Part shown: piece by piece, positions 11,838 through 34,731 of the stretch
How positions within the stretch are numbered: the first letter of the stretch is position 1
Layout of the letters: each line of letters opens with the position of its first letter
Assembly (NCBI GenBank): GCA_013298025.1
Contig: JAAFJE010000016.1
Location: forward strand, 82,729 to 146,728
Direction: 5' to 3'
DNA: 64,000 nucleotides
Source of the DNA: Cytophagales bacterium
GTDB taxonomy: Bacteria; Bacteroidota; Bacteroidia; Cytophagales; Spirosomataceae
Program-made: the position numbers and the translations under genes
Notes under the pieces: generated by a model
Databases searched by the model: none
What the model was told of the DNA's origin: nothing
Seen by the model: only the letters and a program-made list of their open reading frames with translations

Positions 11838-12120
11838 ACTGACAGGTCATGTCCAAAGCGTGGCTCCAGATGATTATAAACAAACAAGGAGCTACAATTT
11901 CTCGTAACCCACTGATTTTCAGTAGTCGGGATGACAGGATTTGAACCTCCACGCTCCAAGCGTGGCTCCAGATGATTATAAACAAACAAGGAGCTACAAT
12001 TGCTTGTAACTCCTCGTTTCCTGTCGGGATGACAGGATTTGAACCTCCACGCTCCAAGCGTGGCTCCAGATGATTATAAACAAACGAGGAGTTACAATTG
12101 CTTGTAACTCCTCGTTTCCT
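11838..12120. repeat. 98-bp tandem repeat of tRNA-Pro 3' end plus terminator
   Basis: GTCGGGATGACAGGATTTGA, the complement of the tRNA-Pro 3' end, recurs at 11925, 12023 and 12121, a period of exactly 98 bp. A decayed further unit begins near 11838. Each unit holds the tRNA T-arm and acceptor 3' strand, a CCACGCT/AGCGTGG hairpin, and the inverted repeat GAGGAGTTACA/TGTAACTCCTC that resembles the tRNA terminator. The third 12121 copy is the attL core itself. They look like scars of repeated integration or duplication at the tRNA 3' end. Confidence 0.85.
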
Positions 12121-12164
12121 GTCGGGATGACAGGATTTGAACCTGCGACCCCACGCCCCCCAGA
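12121..12164. other. attL: displaced 3' half of tRNA-Pro
   Basis: The 44 bp are identical to 30757-30800. On the minus strand they read from T31 of the tRNA, through the anticodon loop, variable loop and T-arm, to the 3' end. Identity stops at 12164/12165, where the intact tRNA continues with G30. Confidence 0.9.
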
Positions 12165-12316: not shown

Positions 12317-12344
12317 AAATCAAATCAGAATAAATCGTAAGAAC

Positions 12345-13565: not shown

Positions 13566-13593
13566 TTTAACAGTAAACAAACGTTCTCAAACG

Positions 13594-14706: not shown

Positions 14707-14917
14707 ATTATATGTCACCTAATCAGTGGCTTTTAAACTGACGTTGCCTTAACCTCAATTAACCAAAAATTAGAGTGCTGGATTCTACCTTTCTTACTTG
14801 CTGATCTTTTGAGTGGTAGTTCTCACATTTGATTGCCATCATGTTTTATTCTAAAATTGAATTTTGGTAGTCCTGTAAATGTAATGCTTTATTTATCTTT
14901 GTCATAAAAAAGGTAAA

Positions 14918-15849: not shown

Positions 15850-16033
15850 GACTACCGAATTTTTTGTATAAATTCCATGAGTTATAAAGAATGTTTAATA
15901 GCAAGCTATTCTGTTTTTAAGCGATGTAAAATAGCTTGGGTTGATTCTGCCTAAGTTACCACCAGTTCATTGCTTCCAACGGAGATAAATACCTGGTACA
16001 TGATAAATCTATTTTAAACAACAAATTAAATCG

Positions 16034-16065
16034 TTTTCAGATAATCATTCTTTAATATATCTTTG
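16034..16065 (+). promoter_or_regulatory. Promoter of the helicase-methylase operon
   Basis: TATCTTTG (16058-16065) matches the -7 consensus exactly, with TTTTC about 20 nt upstream as a weak -33 box. It lies 28 bp before the helicase ATG and downstream of the IS, so the insertion leaves the operon promoter intact. Confidence 0.5.
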
Positions 16066-16093
16066 AAAATGATTTAATAAAGAAATTTATCCA

Positions 16094-19402: not shown

Positions 19403-19421
19403 ACAAACACCTAATATTGCT

Positions 19422-22400: not shown

Positions 22401-22994
22401 TTAAGAGCTAGTAGTGGTAATCTAAGAATTCTTGCAATCTATGATGATAGAAATATATACACTTCTCATAAATCAATCATCATTATTGAAAATTCAAATT
22501 TGCCTCAAGGTCATCTGTTGAAAAAAGATATTTCATTATTAAATTTAAAATACTTACTCGCAATACTGAATTGTCAGCTTATTGATTTCTACTATGGGAC
22601 TGTATTTGGAGGGTTTATAGATGTTTATCCGAATAATTTAAAATCTCTACCCATTCCACAACTAAGCATTGCTCAACAGCAACCCTTTATTCGCCTTGTC
22701 GAATACATTTTACACTTAAAAAAAGAAGGTAAAGGAGAAAGTAATATAATGGCAAAGTATTTTGAGGAAATTGTGGATGGCTTGGTGTATGAGCTTTACT
22801 TTGAAGAAGAGCTTCATCAAGCAGGTGTTTATTTTCATAAGCATTTACAGGCACTGCCAAGTATTAGTGAAGATACTATGAGCATAGCAACAATTTTCAG
22901 CGAACTGTACTCACCCAATCATCCCGTGCGTGAAAGTTTATTTAAGCTTGATACCGTAGAAGAAGTAGCCATTATTATAGGTAAAAACCATTAG
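19422..22994 (+). CDS. Eco57I-type N6-adenine methyltransferase with specificity domain
   Basis: The 1190-residue protein has an N-terminal helical region (about 1-430). The amino-methylase domain follows: GSFYTPREIVEYMVDESL (about 434), SAM-binding motif I DPACGSGAFPMGIL (about 503) and catalytic FDIVIGNPPYV (motif IV, about 738). The remainder (about 760-1120) resembles a TaqI/Eco57I C-terminal target-recognition domain, with YIEGSAIPKSKSGRYSF and LLAILNCQLIDFYYG near its end. It would modify adenine in a specific site and protect host DNA. No nuclease motif is seen in this polypeptide; the PLD-helicase encoded upstream would supply it. The last ~100 residues (KKEGKGESNIMAKYFEEIVD) resemble the C-terminal region of PglX-like methylases. 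Confidence 0.88.
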   Translation: MNKTDIQTILQKPYQLSHWTEFLKDIFGGSYRNNPPAIELPNNDVAHTAYEIGQFTTTDNMLVGVYEVKIKDGVSIENKRVSLRNLLRSVYRVVDAALIVFDTGETWRFSYVSEIFVRDEAGNRKQFKTDPKRYTYVLGNGSGVRTATERFFELSKKGQQVKLKDLNDAFSVELLTKNFYRDLSDWYFWALTNVTFPDDAEPNDEVRNATSVIRLITRLIFVWFLKQKKLVRDELFDEATIKEILKNFNTNNDQQSSTYYKAILQNLFFATLNTEMTDDKRKFINRQTGVQGFYRYERYFQNKERFLELTKETPFLNGGLFENLDRNIGEPNEIRIDCFSNRLSNENRLIVPDYLFFGEDTTDLSSVYDDKKRKAVQVKGIIHILKSYNFTVEENTPTDIEVALDPELLGKVFENLLASYNPETKTTARKQTGSFYTPREIVEYMVDESLKAYLKEALQNRTENNIEECLDNLFSYSNEYNPFNEQETLVLIGAIDRCKILDPACGSGAFPMGILQRLVFLLRKLDPLNEYWREQQISRATKEFEQALRLGQSIDLQTQIQEITDTFTHNTDDFGRKLYLIENCIYGVDIQPIAVQIAKLRFFISLMAEQNSLQQGTNRGIRPLPNLETKFVAANTLIGLEKPSQLLLKNTTIDVLEKQLEEVRHKHFFARTPETKKKYRLKDQELRKGIAQLLSNDGWKPSSANQVAAWNPYDQSTFASFFDAEWMFGIIDGFDIVIGNPPYVSANNMSYEDRNALNKSEEYQYLKGKWDLYVPFVEKSIKILSRNGFFVFIIPYGILNQPFAEELRKAILKDFKLLSIVDLKNNKIFENATVPSCIPIIQRKKSFNHEVSILGYSKSEFAKNYGINIQKYHNTEQNMFRTENLNKLSSILDRIKAKGNTLESNFYVSTGAEIHGKESKDDIGKTIPGKSKFDVLHKIYSQGLKPYIEGSAIPKSKSGRYSFPKIDTWLDYSNPQLMRSAKFSELFESEKIILRASSGNLRILAIYDDRNIYTSHKSIIIIENSNLPQGHLLKKDISLLNLKYLLAILNCQLIDFYYGTVFGGFIDVYPNNLKSLPIPQLSIAQQQPFIRLVEYILHLKKEGKGESNIMAKYFEEIVDGLVYELYFEEELHQAGVYFHKHLQALPSISEDTMSIATIFSELYSPNHPVRESLFKLDTVEEVAIIIGKNH

Positions 22995-23092
22995 ATTTTA
23001 CCGTTTACTAAGTTTTCTTTCCATTAAAAGCTAAAACATTTGGTATAAAAGGCTGTAAATAAGATATTTAAGTGAAATTTAACACAAAACTT

Positions 23093-24754
23093 ATGAAACA
23101 GCTAACTCTATTACTCGTGCTTTTGGTTTCCATGTTCTCGGCTTATGGGCAGAAAAAAACTACGGATAAATCAAGGTTTTCGTTGAAAGCGGATACCTCT
23201 AATTTTGGAAAAAAAATGCCAATAAATAATTCCAATTTGGTAAGTTACTCATCCTTCAAAAGGATTTTTAAACGAGATTTTGCATCTGTAGTAGGTACAA
23301 ATAATTTACCTACCAACCAATTAATTGTAGGTCTGAATAAACCAGAAATATTATTTGGCAAATTATTTCAGATATACAAAGACCCAAGTAAATCTATGCC
23401 TATATTAGGGCTATATCCCTTTTTAGGAGGAAAGCTCAACAACGATGATGAGTTTCGATTAGGAATTAATAATACAAACAGTATTCATCTAAAATATGGG
23501 GGAAAAGTAGTTTTTTTCCCTTTGGGTTTAGCAAAAAAAACACGCTATTTTTTCAACTTGAGCGATTCCAAAACGAAATTATTTATTGATAAAAATCAAT
23601 TAATAAAACAAAAGCTAATAAGCGATTATGATAAAACAACATTTGAAGCAAAAAAGAAAAAGCTCTCTGACGAAGAAAAACAAATAGAAGAGGAAATAAC
23701 CCAAAAAACAGAAAACGCTAAAACTATCAAGTATCTGTTAGGCTTAAAGTCCACTTTAAATATAAAGGTAGATGATACCAATAAGTTAACAATCAGCCAA
23801 GAAGGAGGAGTTAATAGTATTGTTTTTGAGAAAGATGAAATTGAATCGGCTATCCAAAATATTCGTAAAAATAATGGTTTTATACGCACAGTTGGAGTTA
23901 AAAATAAAAACGTTTTCATTCTCACCAACGAAAAAGACACAATTAATATATCACCAGTAGATATACTTAAAAGTTTAGATATATCAGATGATGACATTTC
24001 TAATTTGAAGGACAAAAAAAATAAAATAATAGCCAAAAAGATTGAAGTTGAAGAATTAGATGCTTCTTCCGAAAAGGACTTAAAAAAAATGTTGGAAGAC
24101 AAAATATTCGAGGCTGAAAAAGATGCTCCTTGGACTAAACGTCACTTTTTATGGTTTACACTTGATTATGATAATATTCCTCAAAGTGTGAATTTATTTC
24201 GTAATAACTCAATTGAAAAAGACCAAATTTATAGAAATGGCTCTTTAGGTATCTCTATTAACTACTCATATTTTAAGAAAAAATTGGGTTTTAATGGCTT
24301 TGCCAAATTTGAAAAATACAACAATAACAGTTTTTTGACAGATTATGATGCCATAACAATACTAAAAGATAGTATATTAACTGGTACACAATACAAAATT
24401 GCAGAATCAACAGAAGTCTATGATGTTCGTAAATTGACCACCTCGCAATTAGTAGAAAAGTCTAATAGAAATCTATTAACATTAGGCATGACTATACTTA
24501 AAAGTTTTGGAGATATTGATAAAAAATATGGCGTAACTACTGAATATAAATCAGACTTAGACAAGAAAATCGCTAATTTAAAAATTGGTTTGATATTTCC
24601 AGTTATACTGGATAATTCAAAAGCCGAACAGTCAAATTTAATCTTTGAATTAGTCCTTCCTGATGTACACTCAAAAAGTATTGGTAATGATGAGAGTGCG
24701 TTTAAGCGGTCATACATTAACTTAAAATTAGGTATCCCTATAAACTTTTTATAA
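23093..24754 (+). CDS. Exported protein of unknown function, probable outer-membrane beta-barrel
   Basis: Starting at the ATG at 23093 (a GTG at 23072 gives a less typical signal), the 553-residue protein begins MKQLTLLLVLLVSMFSAYGQ, a clear signal peptide. A charged coiled-coil segment lies at about 185-220 (KKKKLSDEEKQIEEEITQK) and a second one at about 310-345. The C-terminal third alternates hydrophobic strands, and the protein ends YINLKLGIPINFL, like the last strand of an outer-membrane barrel. I do not recognise the family. It lies 98 bp after the methylase and 6 bp before the ATPase gene, so it appears to be part of the operon. An exported component is odd in a restriction-like locus. 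Confidence 0.7.
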   Translation: MKQLTLLLVLLVSMFSAYGQKKTTDKSRFSLKADTSNFGKKMPINNSNLVSYSSFKRIFKRDFASVVGTNNLPTNQLIVGLNKPEILFGKLFQIYKDPSKSMPILGLYPFLGGKLNNDDEFRLGINNTNSIHLKYGGKVVFFPLGLAKKTRYFFNLSDSKTKLFIDKNQLIKQKLISDYDKTTFEAKKKKLSDEEKQIEEEITQKTENAKTIKYLLGLKSTLNIKVDDTNKLTISQEGGVNSIVFEKDEIESAIQNIRKNNGFIRTVGVKNKNVFILTNEKDTINISPVDILKSLDISDDDISNLKDKKNKIIAKKIEVEELDASSEKDLKKMLEDKIFEAEKDAPWTKRHFLWFTLDYDNIPQSVNLFRNNSIEKDQIYRNGSLGISINYSYFKKKLGFNGFAKFEKYNNNSFLTDYDAITILKDSILTGTQYKIAESTEVYDVRKLTTSQLVEKSNRNLLTLGMTILKSFGDIDKKYGVTTEYKSDLDKKIANLKIGLIFPVILDNSKAEQSNLIFELVLPDVHSKSIGNDESAFKRSYINLKLGIPINFL

Positions 24755-24760
24755 AATAAC

Positions 24761-26587
24761 ATGAAAATCAAAACCATAAAAATACACAATTACAGAGCGT
24801 TCTATCCTCAAAAAGACAGTAATCAAAATTCAAAACCTTATGAAATTGAGGTAAATGGTAAAAATGTATTGATTTATGGTGAAAACGGCTCGGGAAAAAC
24901 ATCACTTTTCCGGGCCGTTCGTGATTTCATCAAGTCAAGTCAGTCATCACTGCCTTTTGAATCTAATGCTTTCGTTCCATCACCAAACGGTGTTATGGAA
25001 GAAGGAGAAATATCTTTGGATTTTATAGGAAATACTCAAGTTTTTAAATTCACAAACGATGCTGGGAGAAATAATGCAAATACTGACCCTAATATTAAAT
25101 CAGCTGATAAGGCAAGCGGTTGGTTAACTTATGCTGAAATTTTAAAAACCTATTTAGTAGATAAACAGAAGCCCGATTTATTTGATTTATTGGTGAAGCA
25201 AATACTAACGAATCATTTCCTTCCACCATCTACAAGCAAAACTATTGGCGAAGAATGGACTTTACTTGAGAACAATATAAATGGGCGACGAAACAATCCA
25301 GCAGTGAAGCCATTACTCAAGGCAAATGGAAAACTCAATTGTGATGATTTTAACAGTGGATTCAAAATATTGTTAAAAGGTTTGCAAAACGGAGCTAATA
25401 ACATCGAAGGGATTGAATCAATTTTAAATAATTGGCTTTCAACATACTTCAAAAATGGGCTACAAGTAAGCTTTAATTTCCAAGACGTAATAGAAGAAAC
25501 GAATACTGGCAAGAGTAAAAAAAGATATGAATTAAAACGGTCATTGACGTTGGATATTTCACTTCATGGCACTCCTATTCCCATCGCTGAGTACCAAATT
25601 TTTTTAAATGAAGCTCGTCTGTCAGCTTTGGCTATCTGTATCTTTTTAGCAGCTTATAAAACTTATCCAACGGATACTATTCCTACTAAAATATTGTATT
25701 TAGACGATGTATTCATTGGTTTAGATATGTCTAATCGGCTTCCTCTGTTTGATATATTACAAAAGGAGTTTATTCAAAATGGTTATCAAGTTTTTGTGAG
25801 TACCTATGATAGAAGTTGGTTTGAATTAGCCAAAAAACATCTTTCGGATTGGAGTACAATTGAGATGTTTGTAGGAGAAAACGAACATCCAGTGATAATT
25901 CCAAACAAAGGTAATCTTCAAAGAGCCAAGGAATACTTCAAGGCAAAAGACTATCCTGCCGCAGGCAATTATTTGAGGAAAGAGGTTGAACGATTAGTTT
26001 TAGTCCATCTACCAATAACATACAGATATGATAATAGTGGAGTTTTACTAACTGAATTAGAGCGTTTAATAGACCAACTCATCAAGTATTATAAAGATTG
26101 TCATTGTGAAACTTCAATAGATGCTGATTTACAACAATCTCTTAAAATGTTCAAAGACCTTGTTCTTAATCCTTCATCACACTACGACTTGAAAAGTCCT
26201 TTATATAAAATAGAAGTTGAAAAAGCTTTTGAGGTAGTAGAAAAGTTATCTCAATTACCCACCATTGACCGAAAACTTCTTTTAGGAATGGGAAGTTCTT
26301 TGTATTATGAAAATACAGCCCAAGCATACAAAGCCGAGTATATGCTGGTCGAAAATGTGTATAAAATAACTGCCGCATCAGACGTTATCATTACCGATGC
26401 AAAACATAAATTGATTAGGTTTTGGGAAAGCGCAGTAGAGAAATCTGGACATAATGATAAAATTACCCTCTCAGAACGTGTAAAAAGAATTGAACATCAT
26501 CTCCATTTACCAGCCAATACAGTTAATTGGAAAGATGATTTTAAAACGAGTGAGGGTAGAAGTTTGAACCAACTTAGTGCACAATAA
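24761..26587 (+). CDS. RecF/SMC-like AAA ATPase
   Basis: The 608-residue protein opens MKIKTIKIHNYRAFYPQKD, the beginning of RecF/SMC-like ATPases. Walker A follows in LIYGENGSGKTSLFRAVRDF (about residue 40). The second half of the ATPase fold has LSALAICIFLAAYK (signature, about 287) and Walker B ILYLDDVFIGLDMSNRL (about 312), so the ABC-type head is complete. Only a short insertion, about 240 residues, takes the place of a long coiled coil. The C-terminal ~220 residues (KAKDYPAAGNYLRKEVERL) are helical and not recognised. Related ATPases drive defence systems with a nuclease partner (Septu, Gabija), but no matching partner was seen here. It overlaps the next gene by 11 bp. Confidence 0.85.
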   Translation: MKIKTIKIHNYRAFYPQKDSNQNSKPYEIEVNGKNVLIYGENGSGKTSLFRAVRDFIKSSQSSLPFESNAFVPSPNGVMEEGEISLDFIGNTQVFKFTNDAGRNNANTDPNIKSADKASGWLTYAEILKTYLVDKQKPDLFDLLVKQILTNHFLPPSTSKTIGEEWTLLENNINGRRNNPAVKPLLKANGKLNCDDFNSGFKILLKGLQNGANNIEGIESILNNWLSTYFKNGLQVSFNFQDVIEETNTGKSKKRYELKRSLTLDISLHGTPIPIAEYQIFLNEARLSALAICIFLAAYKTYPTDTIPTKILYLDDVFIGLDMSNRLPLFDILQKEFIQNGYQVFVSTYDRSWFELAKKHLSDWSTIEMFVGENEHPVIIPNKGNLQRAKEYFKAKDYPAAGNYLRKEVERLVLVHLPITYRYDNSGVLLTELERLIDQLIKYYKDCHCETSIDADLQQSLKMFKDLVLNPSSHYDLKSPLYKIEVEKAFEVVEKLSQLPTIDRKLLLGMGSSLYYENTAQAYKAEYMLVENVYKITAASDVIITDAKHKLIRFWESAVEKSGHNDKITLSERVKRIEHHLHLPANTVNWKDDFKTSEGRSLNQLSAQ

Positions 26588-27530
26588 TGAATATGATTTT
26601 ATCACTATAAAATTTGATACTATGGATAATTTTTCAAATAGAATGGCATTTATTAATCAATATGGCGATTTTCTCAAAAATCAACCGTACATAGAAAGCC
26701 TTCGGCTATTGTATCCTAATTTATTCAAAGGGTGGGAACGAAATGAAGAAGATAATATAAAAAACCTCAAAACAAAACTCTATTATGCCAAGCTGGCTAA
26801 TCAAGATGTTAATACGATAATAGACGATGAAATTTCAAAATGCTACCAAATAGTGTCAAAGGAAAACAACATAATGTTATTGAATATTGCTAATAGTAAA
26901 ATGGAAGCAATTGGAGAATTACTAAAAGACAATGTATCAACAATTCTTGAAAATCAATTTCAGCTAGACGATATATCAGACTATACCAATATTGACAAAA
27001 CAAAGATATTATCACTTGCTGAATTTATCAATAGTCATGCCGTGCAACCCCATAACTCTTCGGCTATTAGTGTTTATACTGATGAATTTGAAAAGTTATC
27101 GACGGCAGAACAGGAACAAAGATTTAAGGATATTATGAACATAAATAATGAAACGGAACAGCAAAATATGTTTTTTGAACATAAAATTATAAAAACATGG
27201 TTTGTCAATAAATATTTTCTTCGTTTAGTCAGTGAAAGTAATGACCTAAAAGACCCTGTCAGTAATAAAATTGAGAATAATGAAAGAATAGAATGGAACG
27301 GCACACAAAAAGAATTAGCAGAATTATTTGTTGAATTACATCGTAAAAAGTGGATAGATGAAATTCCTTCTAAGCTTATCAAACAATATTTCACAAAATC
27401 AGATACTATTGAGCAAGTACTAAAACCTACACAAGACAAAAAAACACAAGAAAAAAGTTACGAAGGTATCTTTACAATTGCATACAGACCACGCTTTGAC
27501 GCAATAAGGCAATGCTCTAAAAAACAATAA
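26577..27530 (+). CDS. RteC-like protein, partner of the ATPase
   Basis: A GTG at 26577 overlaps the ATPase stop, giving 317 residues; an ATG at 26622 (302 residues) is the alternative. The protein is acidic and helical, with the C-terminal stretch IEWNGTQKELAELFVELHRKKW, which resembles the RteC C-terminal domain of Bacteroides excision regulators. The N-terminal 200 residues are not recognised. The overlap of 11 bp with the ATPase gene suggests translational coupling and a shared complex or function. It could also be a regulator. Function is unknown. Confidence 0.6.
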   Translation: MHNNEYDFITIKFDTMDNFSNRMAFINQYGDFLKNQPYIESLRLLYPNLFKGWERNEEDNIKNLKTKLYYAKLANQDVNTIIDDEISKCYQIVSKENNIMLLNIANSKMEAIGELLKDNVSTILENQFQLDDISDYTNIDKTKILSLAEFINSHAVQPHNSSAISVYTDEFEKLSTAEQEQRFKDIMNINNETEQQNMFFEHKIIKTWFVNKYFLRLVSESNDLKDPVSNKIENNERIEWNGTQKELAELFVELHRKKWIDEIPSKLIKQYFTKSDTIEQVLKPTQDKKTQEKSYEGIFTIAYRPRFDAIRQCSKKQ

Positions 27531-27623
27531 CTTATACCTAAAAAGTCGTTACGGTAATCATTATAGTAACGACTTTTATCTTGCCTTTTCATCAACTTTG
27601 TCATGTTCAAAATAGATACAAAC

Positions 27624-27968
27624 ATGACAGAAACAATTCTAATTACCTTCTCTAAACATGAATTCAAGGAATTCATTAAAGGCACAATTCAGGAAGCAAT
27701 GAGTGAGCAAACGAACTCCTCAAAAGGTAAAACTTTCCAATCACACGAGTATCTCTCTATTGATGAGGCTTCAAGTTATCTTCAACTCCCTAAAAACACA
27801 TTATACAGCTATTGCCATAATAATGTAATTCCGTATCACAAAAGAGGAAAAAGAAACTACTTTCTTAAAGCTGATTTGGATGTGTGGATGGCATCAAATC
27901 GTAAAAACTCAGTAAGAGAAATTCAAGAAGAAGCTCTGACTAAACTAAAGAAAGGAGGCTCACGATGA
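27624..27968 (+). CDS. Excisionase-type helix-turn-helix protein
   Basis: The start is ATG 27624 (MTETILITFSKHEFKEFIKG), with ATG 27603 as the alternative. The 114-residue protein holds one HTH_17 domain at about 40-95: EYLSIDEASSYLQLPKNTLY, then PYHKRGKRNYFLKADLDVWM. This MerR-like winged helix is usual for excisionases and accessory regulators of Bacteroidota mobile elements. It overlaps the next gene by 4 bp (ATGA), starting the maintenance module at the right end of the element. Confidence 0.82.
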   Translation: MTETILITFSKHEFKEFIKGTIQEAMSEQTNSSKGKTFQSHEYLSIDEASSYLQLPKNTLYSYCHNNVIPYHKRGKRNYFLKADLDVWMASNRKNSVREIQEEALTKLKKGGSR

Positions 27969-28363
27969 ATCATCTTTCCTCTACTCCCAATACAAGTGGC
28001 TCTGTATTATATTGGGAAGCTGTTTGCAAACAAGAGATGTTGCGTATCGACAAGCTAATGGAAGCGAAGTGTAAGCGTTTAGCCTACCTACGACAAAAGT
28101 TGGATGAAGAGATGGATAGTAAAGTGTTTTACCAAATCAAGTCCCTAGAAGAAGAAATTCATACCATTTTAGGATTGATAGATACGACCCAATCACTAAA
28201 GCAAGCATACCTTGGAGAAACTGCGAATGTCGCTGATTTACTCACTACGCTCACTTGTGAAAATCAGGTACTAACAGAGCAGACCCGTTTAATGAATTGT
28301 GCGATTGAGCTTATGTTAGAACGAAGCTTTACTACTCAAAAAAAGGGAGAAAATGAACATTAA
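27965..28363 (+). CDS. Hypothetical helical protein of the mobile element
   Basis: The 132-residue, charged, helix-rich protein has heptad-like stretches (KLMEAKCKRLAYLRQKLDEEM and QIKSLEEEIHTIL), consistent with a coiled coil from about residue 30 to 75. It overlaps the HTH gene at its start (4 bp) and the ATPase gene at its end (11 bp), which ties it to the module. I do not recognise its family. Confidence 0.7.
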   Translation: MNHLSSTPNTSGSVLYWEAVCKQEMLRIDKLMEAKCKRLAYLRQKLDEEMDSKVFYQIKSLEEEIHTILGLIDTTQSLKQAYLGETANVADLLTTLTCENQVLTEQTRLMNCAIELMLERSFTTQKKGENEH

Positions 28364-29489
28364 TAAGTATGCCCAATTGCTCAATCCAGAGCCAACGAAC
28401 GGAGGTTTTCCTAGTTATGCCAATCCCAATCTTGCGAAGGTATTGGCGACTCAGAAACGCCTTACAACCAATAGTTGTCAGGCGATAGCCTTTAGTTTGC
28501 CCATCATTACCTATCAAGATACAGGGATTATTTACCCCAATACTATCAACATCATTCAGGGAAAGAAGGGCGTACATAAATCAAGGTTAACGGAAATCTT
28601 TTGTGGTTTGATGTTGAGGCAACACCTACCAATAGCAACGCACCAGTTTTTAGGAATGGTGCGTGAGCCAATGCACAAGGCAGTGGTATTATATGTTGAT
28701 ACCGAACGAAATATCAACGACCAGTTTCCTTATGCTATTCAAAAGATTAAGCTATTGGCAGGATACCCGATAGAAGAAGAGCCTCCAAATTTCGATTATA
28801 TCTCACTTATTGATATTGCTCGCAGTGAAAGATTTGATACGCTCAATGAGTATATCAAGCGTTTCAGAGTTCAACATGAAAATCATAATCTTTTCATCGT
28901 TTTTGATGTTGTGACCGATTGTGTTGAGAACTTCAATGATGTTAGAGAAAGTCTAAGGCTTGTGGATATGCTCAATGAAACCATCAACCTATACAACGTT
29001 ACTTTCCTTTGTGTCATTCATGAAAACCCTTCGGCGGGTAATGACAAAGGACGTGGGCATTTAGGTACAGAACTCAATAATAAAGCCTCTCAGGTCATAC
29101 AAATCGGTTTCGAGAAAGACAACCAAGGCAATGATACCGACTTAATACGCTTAAAGTTTCTACATTCAAGAAACACCAAACGACTAGAGCCGATTTATGT
29201 GCAATATTCAGAAGAAACGAAAGGTTTGGTATTGGCGAATGTTGATTTTATCAATGAAAAATTGGCGATGAAAAAAACAAAAGCCCAATTAATTGATATT
29301 CAAAACTGGCTTACCAATCATCTAAAGGAAGCTAAAAGTAAAAAAGAGCTAATCGAGGAGATTAAAATCGCTTTTGATTGTGGAGAAAGAACGATTGAAG
29401 ATAGGTTGAAAGAATTAGATGACAAAGGTTTTATAAAACGCTTTACTGTGGGCAGAAGTGCCTATTATAAATTGATTATTCCATTCTAA
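28353..29489 (+). CDS. RepA-like RecA-fold ATPase (AAA_25 type)
   Basis: The 378-residue protein has a degenerate Walker A in INIIQGKKGVHKSRLTEIF (about residue 70) and a Walker B-like LFIVFDVVTDCVENF (about 185). It matches the RepA/RecA-like helicases of Bacteroidota mobilisable elements. The C-terminal part (about 300-378) ends with a winged helix (FDCGERTIEDRLKELDDKGF). It probably loads at the nearby origin-like repeats for element replication or is involved in transfer. It is followed directly by the inverted repeat at 29491-29540. Confidence 0.78.
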   Translation: MNINKYAQLLNPEPTNGGFPSYANPNLAKVLATQKRLTTNSCQAIAFSLPIITYQDTGIIYPNTINIIQGKKGVHKSRLTEIFCGLMLRQHLPIATHQFLGMVREPMHKAVVLYVDTERNINDQFPYAIQKIKLLAGYPIEEEPPNFDYISLIDIARSERFDTLNEYIKRFRVQHENHNLFIVFDVVTDCVENFNDVRESLRLVDMLNETINLYNVTFLCVIHENPSAGNDKGRGHLGTELNNKASQVIQIGFEKDNQGNDTDLIRLKFLHSRNTKRLEPIYVQYSEETKGLVLANVDFINEKLAMKKTKAQLIDIQNWLTNHLKEAKSKKELIEEIKIAFDCGERTIEDRLKELDDKGFIKRFTVGRSAYYKLIIPF

Positions 29490-29490
29490 G

Positions 29491-29540
29491 AACGTTCGCA
29501 CTCGCAAAGCCATATATAGGGGTTTGCGAATGCGAACGTT
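29491..29540. repeat. 18-bp inverted repeat after the RepA-like gene
   Basis: AACGTTCGCACTCGCAAA (29491-29508) and its complement with one mismatch (29523-29540) enclose a 14-nt spacer. GC is high for the element. There is no U-tract, so terminator function is weak; it could be an operator or an oriT or replication hairpin. Confidence 0.7.
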
Positions 29541-29556
29541 ATAAAAACAGCAAATC

Positions 29557-29745
29557 ATGAGCAATTCTACCAAATATCCCCCAATGAATCGAACCGAATT
29601 GGCTCGAAAATATAAAGTGAGCATTCCAACCTTTAACAAATGGCTAGGGTTGATACCAGAGCTTGTTTTGATAGAGAACCAAAGAATCTTTACGCCTAAA
29701 CAAGTAGAAATTATTACCACACACCTAGGCGAACCACCTGATTAA
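29557..29745 (+). CDS. Small HTH DNA-binding protein
   Basis: The 62-residue protein contains one helix-turn-helix at about 11-35 (NRTELARKYKVSIPTFNKWL) and a tail with RIFTPKQVEII. It is a likely regulator of the replication or excision genes of the element. It starts 16 bp after the inverted repeat at 29491-29540, which is a plausible operator for it (inference). Confidence 0.65.
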   Translation: MSNSTKYPPMNRTELARKYKVSIPTFNKWLGLIPELVLIENQRIFTPKQVEIITTHLGEPPD

Positions 29746-29759
29746 TTCCCTAAAAACAA

Positions 29760-29900
29760 GTAAGCATTAACGTAAATTAATCCGAATTAACCCACGTTAA
29801 CCCTCATAAACTCGAAAGCGGTTTATGGGGGTTAATTAGTTTTATACCAATAAAATTAACAGGAGTTAATTTTCAAATGTAAATCACGATTAATTAACGA
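29760..29900. other. Origin-like AT-rich region with stem-loop and repeated ATTAA/TTAAC motifs
   Basis: TTAA-containing words (CATTAACGTAAATTAATCC, GAATTAACCC, CGTTAACCC) repeat in 29765-29800. A 16-bp stem with two mismatches, TTAACCCTCATAAACT (29797-29812) with 29820-29835, has the loop CGAAAGC. More TTAAT words follow to 29900. The position beside a RepA-like ATPase and a MobC-like gene fits a replication or transfer origin. Confidence 0.5.
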
Positions 29901-29909
29901 AAGAGTCCA

Positions 29910-30335
29910 ATGAACGAAATCAGAACAGGTAGAGCCTTGCAATTGGAAAGGCTTCAATATGCTACCAACAAAGTAACCCTCGGCTTCAAATGTGAAGCTC
30001 AAACCAAAATAGCCTTGGCTCAGGAAGCCCAACAGATAGGAATGACTCTCAGCGAATATGTTGAAACAGTTATTTCGAGCAGAAACCATCAAGTAAAATC
30101 AAGTGAAGATGGTACTTCGGAGTTAATGACCACGGTAGCCTCTCAGCAAAAGCTTATCGACAAGCTCAAAACAAAGGTTAATTTTTATGAAAACGACCTA
30201 CTGCGAAGAGCCTTTCATAGTCATAGAGGGCAAACCATCGAATACACCAATAGTCATGGCAAAATAGTGAGCAAAACTATCAGCCAAATAGAAGACGTTT
30301 TCACTGTATTATTAGACACCGTAAAACTATCGTAA
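29910..30335 (+). CDS. MobC-like mobilisation accessory protein
   Basis: The 141-residue protein has an N-terminal ribbon-helix-helix-like segment with VTLGFKCEAQTKIALAQEAQ and a motif typical of relaxosome accessory proteins (GMTLSEYVETVISSR, about 50-65), followed by a helical tail. MobC proteins help a relaxase open the DNA at oriT. No relaxase gene lies in this element, so it may assist a helper relaxase, or the annotation may be wrong and the protein a plain regulator. The start ATG lies 10 bp after the origin-like region. Confidence 0.6.
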   Translation: MNEIRTGRALQLERLQYATNKVTLGFKCEAQTKIALAQEAQQIGMTLSEYVETVISSRNHQVKSSEDGTSELMTTVASQQKLIDKLKTKVNFYENDLLRRAFHSHRGQTIEYTNSHGKIVSKTISQIEDVFTVLLDTVKLS

Positions 30336-30337
30336 CC

Positions 30338-30601
30338 ATGTTTGAAACCATCGCACATCCCTTTGAGCAAGTAGGCGAAAGCCTATCGGGTTTAGCTGTA
30401 GAAACAGCCATTGGCGTGGTCACACCATCAACCAGTAAAGGCTTTGGAGTGCTACGTATGCTCTTGATTTTGTTACTCTTGATATTCGGCGTAGGTTTTT
30501 ACATCGTCTTTTACTACTTGCCAAGAAAGAAGGAGGAGAAACAATCATTGGAGGAGAATGAAACTATTCCCAATAAAAAAATAGCTTCCGTTGTTGATTA
30601 G
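30338..30601 (+). CDS. Small membrane protein
   Basis: The 87-residue protein has one transmembrane helix (VLRMLLILLLLIFGVGFYIV, about 43-64) and a charged tail (RKKEEKQSLEENE). It starts 2 bp after the MobC-like gene, so the two are probably translated from one transcript. Function unknown. 30602-30757 holds only the arm sites, the tRNA terminator and no ORF. Confidence 0.6.
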   Translation: MFETIAHPFEQVGESLSGLAVETAIGVVTPSTSKGFGVLRMLLILLLLIFGVGFYIVFYYLPRKKEEKQSLEENETIPNKKIASVVD

Positions 30602-30687
30602 ACAATACTATTACAATTCTCATTCATCCATATCTCTGGATTACCAGATACACTTATGGTTAAGGTACAAATATTTATCTATAATTT

Positions 30688-30706
30688 GTTTAAACCATAT
30701 TTAAAC
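30688..30706. promoter_or_regulatory. GTTTAAAC/ATTTAAAC pair near attR (probable integrase arm sites)
   Basis: GTTTAAAC (30688-30695) and ATTTAAAC (30699-30706) lie 50-70 bp inside attR and mirror the three copies near attL. Together they suggest arm-type sites at both ends. Confidence 0.5.
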
Positions 30707-30717
30707 CGAAAATAAAA

Positions 30718-30745
30718 AAGGAGTCACAGTTTCTTGTAACTCCTT
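30718..30745 (-). terminator. tRNA-Pro terminator carried by the element
   Basis: On the minus strand AAGGAGTTACA pairs with TGTGACTCCTT (one mismatch) and TTTTTTATTTT follows. A copy of the same hairpin also lies left of attL in each 98-bp repeat, which shows the element's own tRNA end came with its terminator. Confidence 0.85.
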
Positions 30746-30756
30746 GATTTTCAATA

Positions 30757-30800
30757 GTCGGGATGACAGGATTTGAACCTGCGACCCCACGCCCCCCAGA
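30757..30800. other. attR: element-derived 3' half of the intact tRNA-Pro
   Basis: It is identical to attL (12121-12164) over 44 bp. The identity ends after TCTG of the anticodon loop (T31-G34 in tRNA numbering), so strand exchange probably took place in the anticodon-loop region. Confidence 0.9.
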
Positions 30801-30831
30801 CGTGTGCGCTACCGGGCTGCGCCACATCCCG
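30758..30831 (-). tRNA. tRNA-Pro(GGG), intact
   Basis: Minus-strand 74-nt cloverleaf without encoded CCA. The acceptor is CGGGATG/CATCCCG with discriminator A, the D arm GCGC/GCGC, the anticodon stem CACGT/GCGTG with loop CTGGGGG (anticodon GGG at 34-36), and the T arm GCAGG/CCTGT with loop TTCAAAT. The 5' half continues from the GIY-YIG repeat array; the 3' half is the element's attR copy. It begins 5 bp after the stop of the nearest GIY-YIG gene. Its original promoter appears to lie 1.7 kb upstream, beyond the array. Confidence 0.93.
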
Positions 30832-30836
30832 AATAA

Positions 30837-31091
30837 TTACTGTTTCTCTGCTATATCTGCAAGAAACCTAACCGCTCCTCTCTTTTTTATTTTTGTTTCA
30901 AGCATACCAGCTTCGCTATCTTCTAATAAATCGGATTTCCAAACACATATCCACGGGCTTCCCGATTTGGTAGAAGTATTTAGCCCAGCGTTATGTTGAG
31001 CAAGTCTTCGTTCAAAATGTATTGTTTTACCTGTATAATATTTAGCTGTTTTTGAGCTAAATAGTATGTAAACAACAGTATCTTTCGGCAT
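30837..31091 (-). CDS. GIY-YIG endonuclease, copy 1 (nearest to tRNA)
   Basis: The 84-residue protein starts at MPKDTVVYILFSSKTAKYYTG and covers one GIY-YIG catalytic domain: VYILF (GIY position), KYYTGKT (YIG position), RRLAQHN (the conserved Arg and following helix) and METKIKKRG-like LETKIKK (the Glu). It acts as a DNA nuclease, probably cleaving one strand or a specific target, but the target is not known. An ORF reading upstream to 31163 exists, but its first 24 residues are translated tRNA sequence, so the start at 31091 is preferred. The stop lies 5 bp from the 5' end of the intact tRNA-Pro. Type A: L before NTSTK. Confidence 0.8.
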   Translation of the reverse strand: MPKDTVVYILFSSKTAKYYTGKTIHFERRLAQHNAGLNTSTKSGSPWICVWKSDLLEDSEAGMLETKIKKRGAVRFLADIAEKQ

Positions 31092-31172
31092 AGATGTAAA
31101 GGATTTGAATCTCCACGCCATCGGCGTGGCCTCAGACGTGTGCGCTACCGGGCTGCGCCACATCCCGAATAA

Positions 31173-31427
31173 TTACTGTTTCTCTGCTATATCTGCAAGA
31201 AACCTAACCGCTCCTCTCTTTTTTATTTTTGTTTCAAGCATACTAGCTTCGCTATCTTCTAATAAATCGGATTTCCAAACACATATCCACGGGCTTCCTG
31301 ATTTGGTAGAAGTATTTTGCCCAGCGTTATGTTGAGCAAGTCTTCGTTCAAAATGTATGGTTTTACCTGTATAGTATTTAGCTGTTTTTGAGCTAAATAC
31401 TATGTACACAACAGTATCTTTCGGCAT
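31173..31427 (-). CDS. GIY-YIG endonuclease, copy 2
   Basis: 84 residues starting MPKDTVVYIVFSS (type B unit with QNTSTK; the first isoleucine-valine change YIVF is seen only here). It has the same GIY-YIG residues as copy 1, so it is intact and probably functional. Its upstream flank is the second tRNA 5' fragment and hairpin (31449-31503). Confidence 0.8.
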   Translation of the reverse strand: MPKDTVVYIVFSSKTAKYYTGKTIHFERRLAQHNAGQNTSTKSGSPWICVWKSDLLEDSEASMLETKIKKRGAVRFLADIAEKQ

Positions 31428-31508
31428 AGATGTAAAGGATTTGAACCTCCACGCCACCGGCGTGGCCTCAGACGTGTGCGCTACCGGGCTGCGCCACATC
31501 CCGAATAA

Positions 31509-31763
31509 TTACTGTTTCTCTGCTATATCTGCAAAAAACCTAACCGCTCCTCTCTTTTTTATTTTTGTTTCAAGCATACTAGCTTCGCTATCTTCTAATA
31601 AATCGGATTTCCAAACACATATCCACGGGCTTCCCGATTTGGTAGAAGTATTTAGCCCAGCGTTATGTTGAGCAAGTCTTCGTTCAAAATGTATTGTTTT
31701 ACCTGTATAATATTTAGCTGTTTTTGAGCTAAATAGTATGTAAACAACAGTATCTTTCGGCAT
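31509..31763 (-). CDS. GIY-YIG endonuclease, copy 3
   Basis: 84 residues, type A like copy 1 (LNTSTK). It differs from copy 1 only by RFFADIAEKQ in place of RFLADIAEKQ near the end and a Ser for Gly (EASML). The catalytic residues are intact. Being type A, it argues that a two-unit block was duplicated. Confidence 0.8.
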   Translation of the reverse strand: MPKDTVVYILFSSKTAKYYTGKTIHFERRLAQHNAGLNTSTKSGSPWICVWKSDLLEDSEASMLETKIKKRGAVRFFADIAEKQ

Positions 31764-31844
31764 AGATGTAAAGGATTTGAATCTCCACGCCATCGGCGTG
31801 GCCTCAGACGTGTGCGCTACCGGGCTGCGCCACATCCCGAATAA

Positions 31845-32099
31845 TTACTGTTTCTCTGCTATATCTGCAAGAAACCTAACCGCTCCTCTCTTTTTTATTT
31901 TTGTTTCAAGCATACTAGCTTCGCTATCTTCTAATAAATCGGATTTCCAAACACATATCCACGGGCTTCCTGATTTGGTAGAAGTATTTTGCCCAGCGTT
32001 ATGTTGAGCAAGTCTTCGTTCAAAATGTATGGTTTTACCTGTATAGTATTTAGCTGTTTTTGAGCTAAATAGTATGTACACAACAATATCTTTCGGCAT
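31845..32099 (-). CDS. GIY-YIG endonuclease, copy 4
   Basis: 84 residues starting MPKDIVVYILF; type B (QNTSTK). The DI in place of DT is shared only with copy 5. Catalytic residues are conserved. Confidence 0.8.
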   Translation of the reverse strand: MPKDIVVYILFSSKTAKYYTGKTIHFERRLAQHNAGQNTSTKSGSPWICVWKSDLLEDSEASMLETKIKKRGAVRFLADIAEKQ

Positions 32100-32180
32100 A
32101 GATGTAAAGGATTTGAACCTCCACGCCACCGGCGTGGCCTCAGACGTGTGCGCTACCGGGCTGCGCCACATCCCGAATAA

Positions 32181-32435
32181 TTACTGTTTCTCTGCTATAT
32201 CTGCAAGAAACCTAACCGCTCCTCTCTTTTTTATTTTTGTTTCAAGCATACTAGCTTCGCTATCTTCTAATAAATCGGATTTCCAAACACATATCCACGG
32301 GCTTCCTGATTTGGTAGAAGTATTTTGCCCAGCGTTATGTTGAGCAAGTCTTCGTTCAAAATGTATGGTTTTACCTGTATAGTATTTAGCTGTTTTTGAG
32401 CTAAATAGTATGTACACAACAATATCTTTCGGCAT
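32181..32435 (-). CDS. GIY-YIG endonuclease, copy 5 (first in transcription order)
   Basis: 84 residues identical in sequence to copy 4 (MPKDIVVYILF, QNTSTK). It lies directly behind the tRNA promoter at 32554-32584 and the mutated tRNA 5' fragment (32477-32511). If transcription starts at that promoter, this is the first gene of an RNA that runs through all five units into the intact tRNA. Confidence 0.8.
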   Translation of the reverse strand: MPKDIVVYILFSSKTAKYYTGKTIHFERRLAQHNAGQNTSTKSGSPWICVWKSDLLEDSEASMLETKIKKRGAVRFLADIAEKQ

Positions 32436-32553
32436 AGATGTAAAGGATTTGAACCTCCACGCCACCGGCGTGGCCTCAGACGTGTGCGCTACCGGGCTGC
32501 GCCACATCCAGAACTTATGCTACCCTTACGACATATTCTGTTATTTGGGACTG

Positions 32554-32584
32554 CAAAATTACACGTTGTGTAGTAAAAACACAA
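32554..32584 (-). promoter_or_regulatory. Probable original promoter of tRNA-Pro
   Basis: On the minus strand TTG (32582-32584) and TAATTTTG (32554-32561) are 20 nt apart, followed by GCAGTCC as in the rpsF promoter. It lies about 40 nt before the outermost tRNA 5' fragment (32477-32511) and 1.7 kb from the intact tRNA gene, so the array separates a tRNA from its promoter. Confidence 0.7.
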
Positions 32585-32707
32585 GTGTTGCACGTAAATT
32601 TTCTATTGATTGGCTATCGTTTAGCGCCTTGAATAGGATTTTTGATTTTTGGGAAAAAGCGTGATTTGATACTTTATCTCCGAAATCAAAAATCCTATCG
32701 TCGAAAC

Positions 32708-34447
32708 CTAGCGATTCATAGAAGCTAAAAAGTCGTCGTTGCTGCGGGTATGACGCATTTGTTGCAATAGGAAGTCCATTGCCTCCACCGAGTTCATATC
32801 GCTCATGTGCTTGCGTAAAATCCAAACACGCTGTAGGGTTTCTTTATCCATGAGCAAATCTTCACGGCGTGTACCCGAAGCTGGTACGTCGATGGCAGGG
32901 AAGATACGGCGGTTCGACAACTTACGGTCGAGTTGCAATTCCATGTTACCCGTTCCTTTAAATTCTTCAAAAATTACTTCGTCCATCTTAGAGCCTGTAT
33001 CAATCAAAGCCGTAGCGATGATCGTCAGCGAGCCACCATTTTCTACATTACGGGCTGCTCCAAAGAAACGCTTAGGTTTGTGCAATGCGTTGGCATCGAC
33101 CCCACCCGAAAGAATTTTTCCAGAAGAAGGAACGACCGTATTATACGCTCTTGCCAGACGAGTAATTGAATCCAACAAAATGACTACGTCGTGTCCACAT
33201 TCTACCATGCGTTTGGCTTTTTCAAGGACAATACTTGCCACCTTGACGTGCCTTTCGGCTTGTTCGTCGAAGGTTGATGAAATCACTTCTGCACGCACAC
33301 TTCGTTGCATATCTGTCACCTCTTCGGGGCGTTCGTCAATCAATAAAATCAACAAATATACTTCGGGGTGATTTTTGGCAATAGCATTGGCAATTTCTTT
33401 GAGCAATACCGTTTTACCTGTTTTAGGCTGGGCTACAATCATCCCTCTCTGTCCTTTTCCGATCGGAGCAAACAAGTCGAGAATACGAGTAGAATATTGG
33501 TCGTGACGAGCAGAAAGGTTTAATTTTTCGTCAGGGAATAACGGTGTGAGGTATTCAAAAGGAATACGGTCACGGATTTCTTCGGTTGTTTTACCATTGA
33601 CCGACTCTACACGCAACAAGGCAAAGTATTTTTCCCCTTCTTTAGGTGGACGAATAGCCCCACGCACGGTATCGCCAGTTTTCAAGCCAAACAATTTGAT
33701 TTGCGACGGCGATACATAAATATCGTCGGGCGAAGCCAAATAGTTATAGTCGGCCGAGCGTAAAAAGCCATAACCGCCATCTTGCATGATTTCGAGTACT
33801 CCTTCGTTTTCGATAATCCCATCAAATTCACGAATCGCTTGGTTGTAAATAGGCTTTTTCGTGATACCGTTGTTGGTAGGCAAAGGTCTTGGCGACTCTA
33901 CGACTGGCTCTACATAAGTATTATTGCTCATTGGTACGCCTAATTCATCAGGAGTGATGAAAGAAGTATCAATAGACGCAAATTCATCTTCTACATCGGC
34001 GGGCAAATCTATGATAATAGGGTCTTCGTCGAAGTCGAAACTAAGGTCTTCGGCAGGAGCTTCTATTTTCTTGTGTCTAGTATCTTTCAACGGTCTATTT
34101 TTAGGCGTTGACTCCTTTGCTTTGATGATTGGCATATCTACTTTGGGAGTAGTAGATGTTTCGGTTTCAGAGGCTTCAGGCTTCTGAATACGTTGTCTTT
34201 TAGGGCGTGGGCTATCAGATGCCGGCACACTCTCTTTCCTCACTTTTCTCTCTGGTTTTTGTTCGTTTTCCATAGCATCGCTAGAAGCAGTGTTTAGCTG
34301 TTGGGATTGGCTTTTTTGCTGCTGGTCAAGTATTTTATAGATGAGTTCTTTTTTAGGAAGGTCACTAATGTTTTTGATGTTGATTTCCTCGGCAAGCTCA
34401 CGAAGCTCAGAAATAAGCTTCATCTCTAATTCGTCAATATTATACAT
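32708..34447 (-). CDS. rho: Transcription termination factor Rho
   Basis: The 579-residue protein starts [20 protein letters not shown] at 34447; a longer frame from 34462 adds only MYKIC. An N-terminal Rho-N helical domain (about 1-40) leads into a long charged insertion (about 50-200, [18 protein letters not shown]) typical of Bacteroidota Rho. The RNA-binding CSD follows ([20 protein letters not shown]), then the ATPase with [19 protein letters not shown] (P-loop), [16 protein letters not shown] and [19 protein letters not shown]. It is a hexameric RNA translocase that ends transcription. The stop at 32708 lies about 125 bp before the tRNA promoter. Confidence 0.95.
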
Positions 34448-34731
34448 ACAAATTTTATACAAAGGCTACTTGGTTTTAAGCCTCAAAAGTGGTGGTGATT
34501 AAGTATTTTTTAATTAAATAAAGATGGTAAATTTTACTATCAAAATTTCGGAAAAATTGGTATGAGGTGGAAGATGATGTTAAGATGTTAAGCAGATATT
34601 TGTCGGAGCTTAACGGAAGATATTCACTGAATCATAAATCTTGTTGCAATGATAATACCAATCTTTGAGATTGTCAAGCGGTTCGATTTTTTTTTGTACA
34701 AAAAGAAGCTATTTTCCTTATAAAAGCCGTA

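Follow-up and report, generated by a model that had tools for sequence, protein, structure and literature searches.

A tandem array of small GIY-YIG nuclease genes at a tRNA-Pro gene of a Cytophagales bacterium, and its relatives at other tRNA genes

The tRNA-Pro(GGG) locus

The 64,000-nt stretch of DNA analysed here (the window) comes from a Cytophagales bacterium (assembly GCA_013298025.1, contig JAAFJE010000016.1, positions 82,729 to 146,728 of the forward strand) and contains, next to an intact gene for tRNA-Pro(GGG), a tandem array of five units, each with a small GIY-YIG nuclease gene. On the minus strand the order, read leftward, is a gene that we take from its sequence to be rho (32708-34462), a promoter-like motif, the five units and the intact tRNA (Table 1). 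The array has a period of 336 bp, with 5.1 copies, 97% matches and 0% indels at 30797-32513 (Tandem Repeats Finder), and its five 84-codon open reading frames (ORFs) are all open. The 5' half of tRNA-Pro is found six times at 336-bp steps, five times in the units and once in the intact gene; the outermost copy starts CTGG, not CGGG. Each unit consists of a pseudo-tRNA of ~76 nt followed by the GIY-YIG ORF. The pseudo-tRNA retains the 5' 35 nt and a recognisable T-arm, and a hairpin, CCACGCC-GGT-GGCGTGG, substitutes for the anticodon arm. Three of the five pseudo-tRNAs score 23.1 bits with Rfam, under the gathering score of 29, and the remaining two lie above E 0.1; one is called 'tRNA-???' by ARAGORN, and those of units 1, 4 and 5, for which folds were computed, do fold. 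A sequence-only reading of this DNA had described five GIY-YIG units of the same length before a single intact tRNA, and this is what the repeat analysis finds. It had also assigned 35 nt of tRNA to each unit; these are present, but the unit carries more, namely a whole hairpin-bearing pseudo-tRNA. The placing of the array between tRNA-Pro and its promoter fits the position of TAATTTTG at 32561, upstream of the outermost unit: it is the sole match to TAnnTTTG, presumably the Bacteroidota -7 consensus and the one promoter type scanned for, on the minus strand of 30757-32760.

Eleven columns vary among the units; nine of these separate two unit types, and within a type at most two vary. Starting next to rho, the units run A, A, B, A', B', units 1 and 2 being identical in sequence, and this order is most easily accounted for if a two-unit block was duplicated. 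Recombination of such a block thus helped to build the array, beside any re-insertion at the target. The proposal that the nuclease multiplies at its own target is in keeping with the multi-copy loci of relatives described below, but re-insertion alone does not account for the array. No further copy of the full 336-bp unit occurs in the organism's own 5.44-Mb assembly (53 contigs), where the search yielded, outside the array, the tRNA itself, two 37-nt matches in a 98-bp array at 11.9-12.1 kb of the window, and nothing else.

Table 1. Features of the tRNA-Pro(GGG) locus, in window coordinates
Feature	Position	Strand	Basis
Intact tRNA-Pro(GGG), the restored host gene on the reading proposed here	30757..30831	-	ARAGORN; Rfam RF00005, 59.6 bits
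Unit 5 GIY-YIG ORF, 84 aa, closest to the intact tRNA	30837..31091	-	Pfam PF01541, E 5e-12; ORF list, unit comparison
Unit 5 pseudo-tRNA-Pro, hairpin 31113-31129	31092..31167	-	Sequence; 5' half position; fold
Unit 4 GIY-YIG ORF	31173..31427	-	ORF list, unit comparison
Unit 4 pseudo-tRNA-Pro, hairpin 31449-31465	31428..31503	-	Rfam 23.1 bits, below gathering score; fold
Unit 3 GIY-YIG ORF	31509..31763	-	ORF list, unit comparison
Unit 3 pseudo-tRNA-Pro, hairpin 31785-31801	31764..31839	-	Sequence; 5' half position
Unit 2 GIY-YIG ORF	31845..32099	-	ORF list, unit comparison
Unit 2 pseudo-tRNA-Pro, hairpin 32121-32137	32100..32175	-	Rfam 23.1 bits, below gathering score
Unit 1 (outermost) GIY-YIG ORF	32181..32435	-	Pfam, E 1.3e-12; ORF list, unit comparison
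Unit 1 pseudo-tRNA-Pro, first bases altered, hairpin 32457-32473	32436..32511	-	ARAGORN tRNA-???; Rfam 23.1 bits, below gathering score; fold
TAATTTTG, TAnnTTTG promoter-like motif, presumed original tRNA-Pro promoter, now ahead of the array	32554..32561	-	Motif scan
Array (98 bp x 2.9) lacking a GIY-YIG gene, in which pseudo-tRNA-Pro 3' ends occur with hairpin GCCACGCTTGGAGCGTGG and a terminator-like sequence	11856..12144	-	Repeat finding; own-assembly matches

The nuclease and its relatives

The two copies scanned, those of units 1 and 5, both match the GIY-YIG family PF01541 above the cut-off. In a profile comparison with solved structures the closest are UPF0213 and SLX1 chains (1zg2, 1ywl, SLX1). 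Y8, G21 and H33 are invariant in a 20-row alignment and Y19, R29 and E65 nearly so; all six are present in the five window copies, and we take the conserved Y, R, H and E to be the catalytic residues of a GIY-YIG nuclease. The small gene is predicted to encode a DNA-cutting enzyme. The two copies scanned have no match in NCBIfam, and tblastn with the window protein found no match in plasmid records, nor in 50,697 phage records at E 1e-3, a sequence-level comparison that bears on any kinship with SegB (see below); a protein database gave three matches, the organism's own protein among them. With read-through the GIY-YIG ORF is 108 aa long, the N-terminal extension consisting of tRNA sequence. 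Such read-through ORFs, together with the false tRNA call, are a warning for annotation.

When the window protein was compared with 59 relatives, its own genome counted, 16 were matched, and ARAGORN placed a tRNA within 310 bp at 20 of 23 inspected loci of other genomes. A profile of 20 proteins, mostly tRNA-linked, was then run at E 1e-5 against 296 genomes of the phylum (probably Bacteroidota), of which 193 match. The 145 best-scoring places listed outside the own genome (genomes and loci are cited by G and L numbers) form 117 clusters, all of which were fetched and checked for tRNA proximity. A tRNA lies within 300 bp in 91 of the 117 loci and within 100 bp in 78, figures that are valid for the subfamily and not for all GIY-YIG proteins, since the profile derives mostly from tRNA-linked proteins and the places are the best-scoring ones. 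As a control, none of 28 rho loci of relatives has a tRNA within 300 bp. The tRNA is on the same strand as the nuclease gene in 90 of the 91 loci, upstream of it in 61 and downstream in 29. Fourteen isotypes are represented within 300 bp (Ser 28, Pro 15, Asp 9, Arg 7, Cys 6, Asn 6, Ala 5, Val 5, Leu 4, Phe 2, and Lys, Gln, Met and Gly 1 each). There are two to five nuclease copies in 31 of the 117 loci, those of L094 being on opposite strands, and a single copy in 86, although contig ends may conceal more.

The remaining 26 loci are a mixed set. Fifteen belong to a side branch of the protein tree, discussed below; L083, L102 and L108 have a tRNA at 316-640 bp; L179 lies at a transfer-messenger RNA (tmRNA) gene; L087, L131 and L153 have a duplicated T-arm-like sequence; L077, L111 and L137 are near contig ends; and L174 belongs to none of these groups. 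At L179, which is outside the side-branch clade, pieces of the tmRNA 3' end are duplicated on the far side of the nuclease gene.

The sequence-only reading had envisaged a one-gene GIY-YIG element tied to tRNA genes, one of which is kept intact, and the survey bears this out for the 91 loci. The search that it proposed, of the genome and its relatives, reveals a single array in the former and a phylum-wide family in the latter, in which the mirror-image of the window arrangement is commoner (61 against 29). Units lying away from tRNA genes, which it considered fatal to its case, do exist, but they are the 15 proteins of the side branch and do not concern the tRNA branch.

Partial tRNA copies and their hairpins

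The loci are of two types. In that of the window, a pseudo 5' part precedes the GIY-YIG gene and the intact tRNA follows (5' type); in the other the intact tRNA comes first, followed by the GIY-YIG gene and a pseudo 3' part (3' type). In 87 of 93 loci BLAST finds further, partial copies of the locus tRNA, either between the nuclease copies or, as seen from the intact tRNA, beyond them. Those beyond are mostly 3' parts where the intact tRNA is upstream and mostly 5' parts where it is downstream, with some exceptions. By chained alignment with shuffled controls, a significant pseudo-copy (scoring more than 4 above the best of 30 shuffles) is present in 84 of 91 loci, 60 of the 3' type and 24 of the 5' type. 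In these, as in the window, one whole host tRNA remains and a duplicated part flanks the nuclease ORF, the arrangement expected of an element like the mobile ORFs (mORFs) considered below. A homologue of the window arrangement, a single unit of the 5' type at tRNA-Pro(GGG), occurs in G035, from the window's family (L010); the arrays in G242, G291 and G348, with four or five units, are of the 3' type.

Some other repeats were seen in the course of this comparison. Five 407-bp GIY-YIG units with tRNA 3' parts and the palindrome TCCCGAAAGCTTTCGGGA are found at L040 (G025, contig 46), where the intact tRNA is out of view because the contig begins within the array. At L182 (G327), where a tRNA-Asp has two GIY-YIG genes, the upstream side holds five full-length tRNA-Asp-like copies at intervals of ~100 bp, two of them called tRNA-Gly. 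L256 (G397) has a Pro-Val-Thr tRNA trio repeated in tandem in ~332-bp steps, with no GIY-YIG match in the locus.

Hairpins interrupt the pseudo-tRNAs at fixed loops. We assign the loop names from position: the insert is in the T-loop in 17 of 28 tRNA-Ser loci and at D-loop position 21/22 in six of seven tRNA-Arg loci; elsewhere it occupies another loop or the anticodon arm. In G096, for example, the T-loop hairpin sits between GGTTC and GAATC. The clearest evidence of structure comes from inserts of 22 nt, in which pairing is kept while sequence varies. When all 15 distinct ones, two poor fits included, are read as two 11-nt hairpins, 85% of cells are paired and seven of the eight pairs show double changes; covariation is 0.439 against 0.159 when shuffled (reached in 0 of 500 shuffles), and at most 0.168 when the pairing is slid. 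Omission of the two poor fits gives, for a subset of 13 inserts free of one duplicate, 94% pairing and a covariation of 0.462. More generally, among 79 inserts of 10-80 nt, 51 equal or surpass the best five of 100 shuffles in folding, and 28 do not. A stem of at least six pairs is present in 60 of 84 pseudo regions, 28 of 84 intact tRNAs and 127 of 840 shuffles, a weak comparison since terminators are included.

The possibility that palindromes are genome-wide mobile repeats in the window genome was considered and is unsupported, TCCCG..CGGGA occurring there seven times against 32 in the control. The narrower CCACGCNNNNGCGTGG has one site elsewhere in that genome; this pattern is unable to match the window hairpin, which has a 5-base middle. 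TCCCG..CGGGA does exceed its backward control in many genomes of the phylum, for example 88 against 4 in G348 and 451 against 76 in G072.

Occupied and empty sites

Since the rho locus of 28 relatives has no tRNA downstream, empty sites were sought at other loci. In one genus a tRNA-Ser(TGA) gene, whose neighbour is presumably atpG from its translation, is present at the same locus in all eight genomes, as located with a query ending in that tRNA, and only G096 has a GIY-YIG match there. Relative to G156, G219, G111, G084 and G126, G096 has one insertion, of exactly 300 bp, with a 20-nt direct repeat, GAATCCCTCACTCTCCGCAT, made up of the final 18 tRNA bases and AT; relative to G231 and G122 the insertion is 302 and 256 bp, respectively, and lacks that clean repeat. 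The insert begins at the nuclease ATG by the tRNA end and finishes in a T-arm split by TGCCAAAGGCATCCCTTCGGGA between GGTTC and GAATC. Identity is greater to the left of the insert than to the right in all seven comparisons, the left stretch including the tRNA itself.

A second genus was examined at tRNA-Pro(TGG), where 30 loci were seen of 143 matching genomes (150 searched). Twenty-one have a plain tRNA without a GIY-YIG gene, one (G311) has an insert of the 5' type, two genomes have inserts of the 3' type at the orthologous gene, and the tRNA is differently oriented in four and not seen in two. The G311 unit is 314 bp long with a 28-nt repeat of tRNA-Pro positions 1-28; it shares its left flank with the plain-tRNA genome G472, this being the one flank open to comparison because the contig goes no further than the tRNA. 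Four of the 30 loci (L281, L282, L284 and L299) have pseudo-tRNA copies but no GIY-YIG gene; L281 (G506) has four tandem pseudo-tRNA-Pro 3' ends 130 bp apart. In another family, a cluster of tRNAs for Ser, Arg and Pro has four nuclease copies in G242, two in G372 and none in G381, with the same three tRNAs.

These comparisons show that, in relatives of the window organism, units were either inserted or precisely lost, the tRNA remaining whole in each case. That one genome in eight is occupied speaks for gain.

The nuclease tree and a side branch

For the 91 proteins with a tRNA on the same strand within 320 bp, isotype changes 23 times on the tree (the least possible is 13; shuffled mean 58.3, least 51) and host family 52 times (shuffled mean 64.3, least 57). 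The tree is built on 78 columns, and 56 of its 113 inner branches are open. Even so, the nuclease follows the tRNA more than the host, as would a site-specific homing enzyme.

The side branch is a clade of 15 of the 117 proteins, with 97% SH-aLRT (approximate likelihood ratio test) support and no tRNA. Of these 15 loci, 12 have flanking inverted repeats of 10 nt or more, against 11 of the 102 others. The ribonuclease P (RNase P) RNA gene directly adjoins the nuclease gene in L103 and L107 (Rfam), and L139 has the same sequence context; in all three, inverted repeats of 19-24 nt accompany the nuclease gene, which looks as though it occupied the loop of an extended helix at this RNA gene. Seven members (L119, L124, L126, L129, L130, L151 and L184), with flanking inverted repeats such as ACCCCGTGAGATA, are apparently inside genes that, judged by eye from sequence motifs, we take to be for tyrosine recombinases, and two are in what by the same kind of motif are presumably genes for four-helix-bundle proteins. 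L132 and L157 are at the start of a gene that we assume, from such motifs, to be epimerase-like; its first codons (VTGGAGFI) are duplicated, and the rule of the carried part may apply to protein genes too. The host gene of the remaining locus, L188, could not be assigned by reading.

A possible mode of spread, and the alternatives

From the array, the tRNA association, the far-side partial copies, the ~300-bp insertions and the tracking of isotype we infer cutting and homing, and on balance we consider it probable that the tandem 336-bp GIY-YIG units of the window spread as a small selfish, intron-less homing element that restores the tRNA by the part it carries. The nuclease would cut an unoccupied tRNA gene in a tRNA loop, and the double-strand break would be repaired from an occupied allele, with one arm in the 5' side of the tRNA and one in the 3' side. 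Repair would insert the nuclease gene along with the very part of the tRNA that the insertion removes, which would restore the tRNA. The hairpins in the pseudo-tRNA loops may be scars, or else blocks that would make the relic uncuttable, useless as a tRNA or a poor partner for recombination with the intact gene. As the rebuilt tRNA would retain the target, we propose that further rounds, or unequal exchange, give rise to arrays. A benefit of arrays through tRNA dosage was considered and rejected, because only one intact tRNA remains.

Several observations weigh against homing. The intact tRNA of an occupied allele retains the presumed target, so that self-cutting must be held down somehow, and the protein is a bare 84-aa catalytic domain in which no further domain was found; classical homing enzymes, by contrast, are more than this. 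The tRNA association holds for a subfamily only, 26 of 117 loci even there have no tRNA within 300 bp, and the isotype pattern comes from a short and partly open tree. Seven of the 91 tRNA-linked loci have no significant pseudo-copy, others (L109, L158 and L084, for example) bear copies on both sides or the less usual part, and pseudo-tRNA repeats occur without a GIY-YIG gene (window 11856-12144; L281). Ordinary recombination also shaped the array, as its unit order indicates. The empty sites could also have arisen by precise deletion between direct repeats. A defined site with empty alleles exists in relatives, at tRNA-Ser(TGA) and tRNA-Pro(TGG), but no orthologous empty site was found for the window locus: the rho loci of 28 relatives have no downstream tRNA, and the tRNA-Pro(GGG) genes without GIY-YIG in G006, G012, G009, G039 and G037 have flanks that cannot be compared with the window.

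The gene-less repeats and the side branch are the reason why hairpin-directed transposition, unlikely as we judge it, stays a serious rival. Here the pseudo-tRNA hairpin, or the inverted repeat in the side clade, would be a cis-acting end, the GIY-YIG protein a transposase and the tRNA halves target sequence picked up. The covariation of the 22-nt double hairpins, the inverted repeats of the side clade, the multiplication of pseudo-tRNA repeats without the gene and the excess of TCCCG..CGGGA in many genomes all suit such a mechanism. However, the hairpins of the tRNA branch are mostly on one side of the gene, although a flanking inverted repeat does beat its 20 shuffles in 19 of the 102 loci outside the clade (some of these being terminators by eye), and the palindromes are not enriched in the window genome. 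The direct repeats, moreover, are tRNA parts of 20 and 28 nt, and the usual target duplications are shorter than this. Less probable again is segmental amplification without homing, in which a tRNA-GIY unit is duplicated by SegB-like breakage or unequal crossing-over and selection keeps one tRNA intact. The A-A-B-A'-B' order and the 31 multi-copy loci are what it predicts, and SegB drives such amplification in phage T6 (PMC13096335). It does not explain the 86 single-copy loci or the single insertions in otherwise colinear sister genomes; nor is the intact tRNA amplified, so that dosage offers no explanation.

That the nuclease serves the host, either with the decoy tRNA as an RNase/antitoxin-like pair or by shielding the tRNA site from integrases, seems to us very improbable. 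The pseudo-tRNAs do fold, and the 3' side of tRNA-Pro hosts an integrase island with a 47-nt tRNA direct repeat; but that island is present despite the array, presence of the nuclease is patchy within a genus, and relatives are also found at RNase P RNA, tmRNA and protein genes. We give still less credence to an assembly artefact that has multiplied one unit. Draft status (53 contigs) invites the suspicion, against which stand the fixed substitutions between units, their non-trivial order and the five-copy arrays of relatives in the single-contig genomes G291 and G348.

A wider reading, possible but somewhat less likely than not, is that the family is a new class of bacterial mobile element, perhaps among the smallest: ~300 bp, a bare GIY-YIG domain, 14 isotypes across a phylum, a carried half that rebuilds the gene and a relic marked by covarying double hairpins. 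Jointly with this, the hairpin-only pseudo-tRNAs would be non-autonomous copies, nuclease and relic together would amount to homing without an intron or splicing, and sister forms, mostly with inverted repeats, would have moved to RNase P RNA and protein genes, another member being at tmRNA.

Comparison with known systems

The nearest parallel for the enzyme is SegB of T-even phages, which cuts tRNA genes and causes tandem amplification; of 83 mapped sites, 23 have the motif RAWTSGAAC (PMC13096335). In reverse complement this motif corresponds to the T-arm core. Like the present family, SegB and other free-standing GIY-YIG homing endonucleases related to it lie beside tRNA genes of many isotypes, and SegB cuts inside them, as is proposed for the window nuclease; its tandem repeats of nuclease gene and tRNA resemble the window arrays. 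However, SegB is phage-borne and amplifies functional tRNA, whereas the window element is chromosomal, has one bare domain and amplifies only the defective copy; the available part of the SegB account has neither a hairpin-looped pseudo-tRNA nor a tRNA restored by a carried half (PMC13096335). The carried part itself has a precedent in the mORFs of fungal mitochondria (Allomyces atp6; Glomus atp6, atp9, cox2 and nad3), in which an endonuclease ORF brings a replacement gene end and the displaced native end is left behind (PMC3630166). The replacement end and, presumably, endonuclease mobility without an intron are common to both. The mORFs belong to mitochondrial protein genes and encode LAGLIDADG enzymes in three of four Glomus cases, with GIY-YIG in atp9, and what is available of their description includes no hairpin-marked relic and no tandem arrays (PMC3630166); the window family is at bacterial tRNA genes and has both 5' and 3' versions.

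In inserting into tRNA, encoding a homing nuclease and keeping host function, the family is similar to the endonuclease-bearing group I introns that are reported from tRNA genes of bacteria (PMC3984707). These introns keep host function by splicing, in contrast to the duplicate part of the present family. No catalytic intron core was detected: only RF00005 matches in window 30600-32750 (E at most 0.1), and in six relatives Rfam at the gathering score gives only tRNA matches. Essential genes usually tolerate homing elements because these are removed with an intron or intein; the ~300-bp unit is apparently tolerated in tRNA genes because the spare part is carried, and this in a large share of one bacterial phylum, in which 193 of 296 sampled genomes match the profile and the 117 best-scoring clusters were checked for a tRNA. 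Integrase-borne islands at tRNA 3' ends likewise bring the part that restores the tRNA, and direct repeats result. An integrase gene would not fit into 336 bp, and none was found in the unit, the longest other ORF listed in the array being one of 89 aa that overlaps the GIY-YIG ORF on the other strand, these ORFs having been taken from the list without a family scan; an island of this kind is, as described below, on the other side of the same tRNA. UPF0213 and SLX1 are related to the window nuclease in sequence only, no link of theirs to tRNA-borne mobile units having been seen. SegB is larger than the window nuclease, and the tyrT/rtT tandem repeats of E. coli are said to be analogous.

The novelty claimed for this 'homing-like repeat' should be tempered accordingly. 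The carried piece is known from the mORFs (PMC3630166) and the cutting and amplification of tRNA genes from SegB (PMC13096335), but the bacterial combination has no precedent among the open-literature matches listed. Those titles and abstract openings, which exclude subscription papers and preprints, include no GIY-YIG elements with partial tRNAs in bacterial chromosomes, nor any joining of a tRNA-cutting GIY-YIG enzyme with the carried-end strategy in bacteria. The family is of interest as a minute natural system in which to learn how a single GIY-YIG domain locates its site and how a tRNA gene survives repeated invasion, and for tracing the origin of unusual tRNA-like fragments, and of small GIY-YIG genes next to tRNAs, in such genomes.

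The other side of tRNA-Pro

An island of ~18.6 kb is present on the 3' side of tRNA-Pro, within 12121-30831 of the window. Its direct repeat is a 47-nt copy (98%) of the tRNA-Pro 3' part at 12121-12167, and its genes include a tyrosine integrase (12345-13565), a YhcG-type nuclease, a piece of an IS1-like transposase, an AAA protein, a helix-turn-helix protein, and a PLD-helicase and type IIG-like methyltransferase with defence-model hits. The 98-bp array of Table 1, with its pseudo-tRNA-Pro 3' ends and hairpin, is likely to be a non-autonomous relative that belongs to this flank of the tRNA and was moved away from it by the island at 12.1-30.8 kb.

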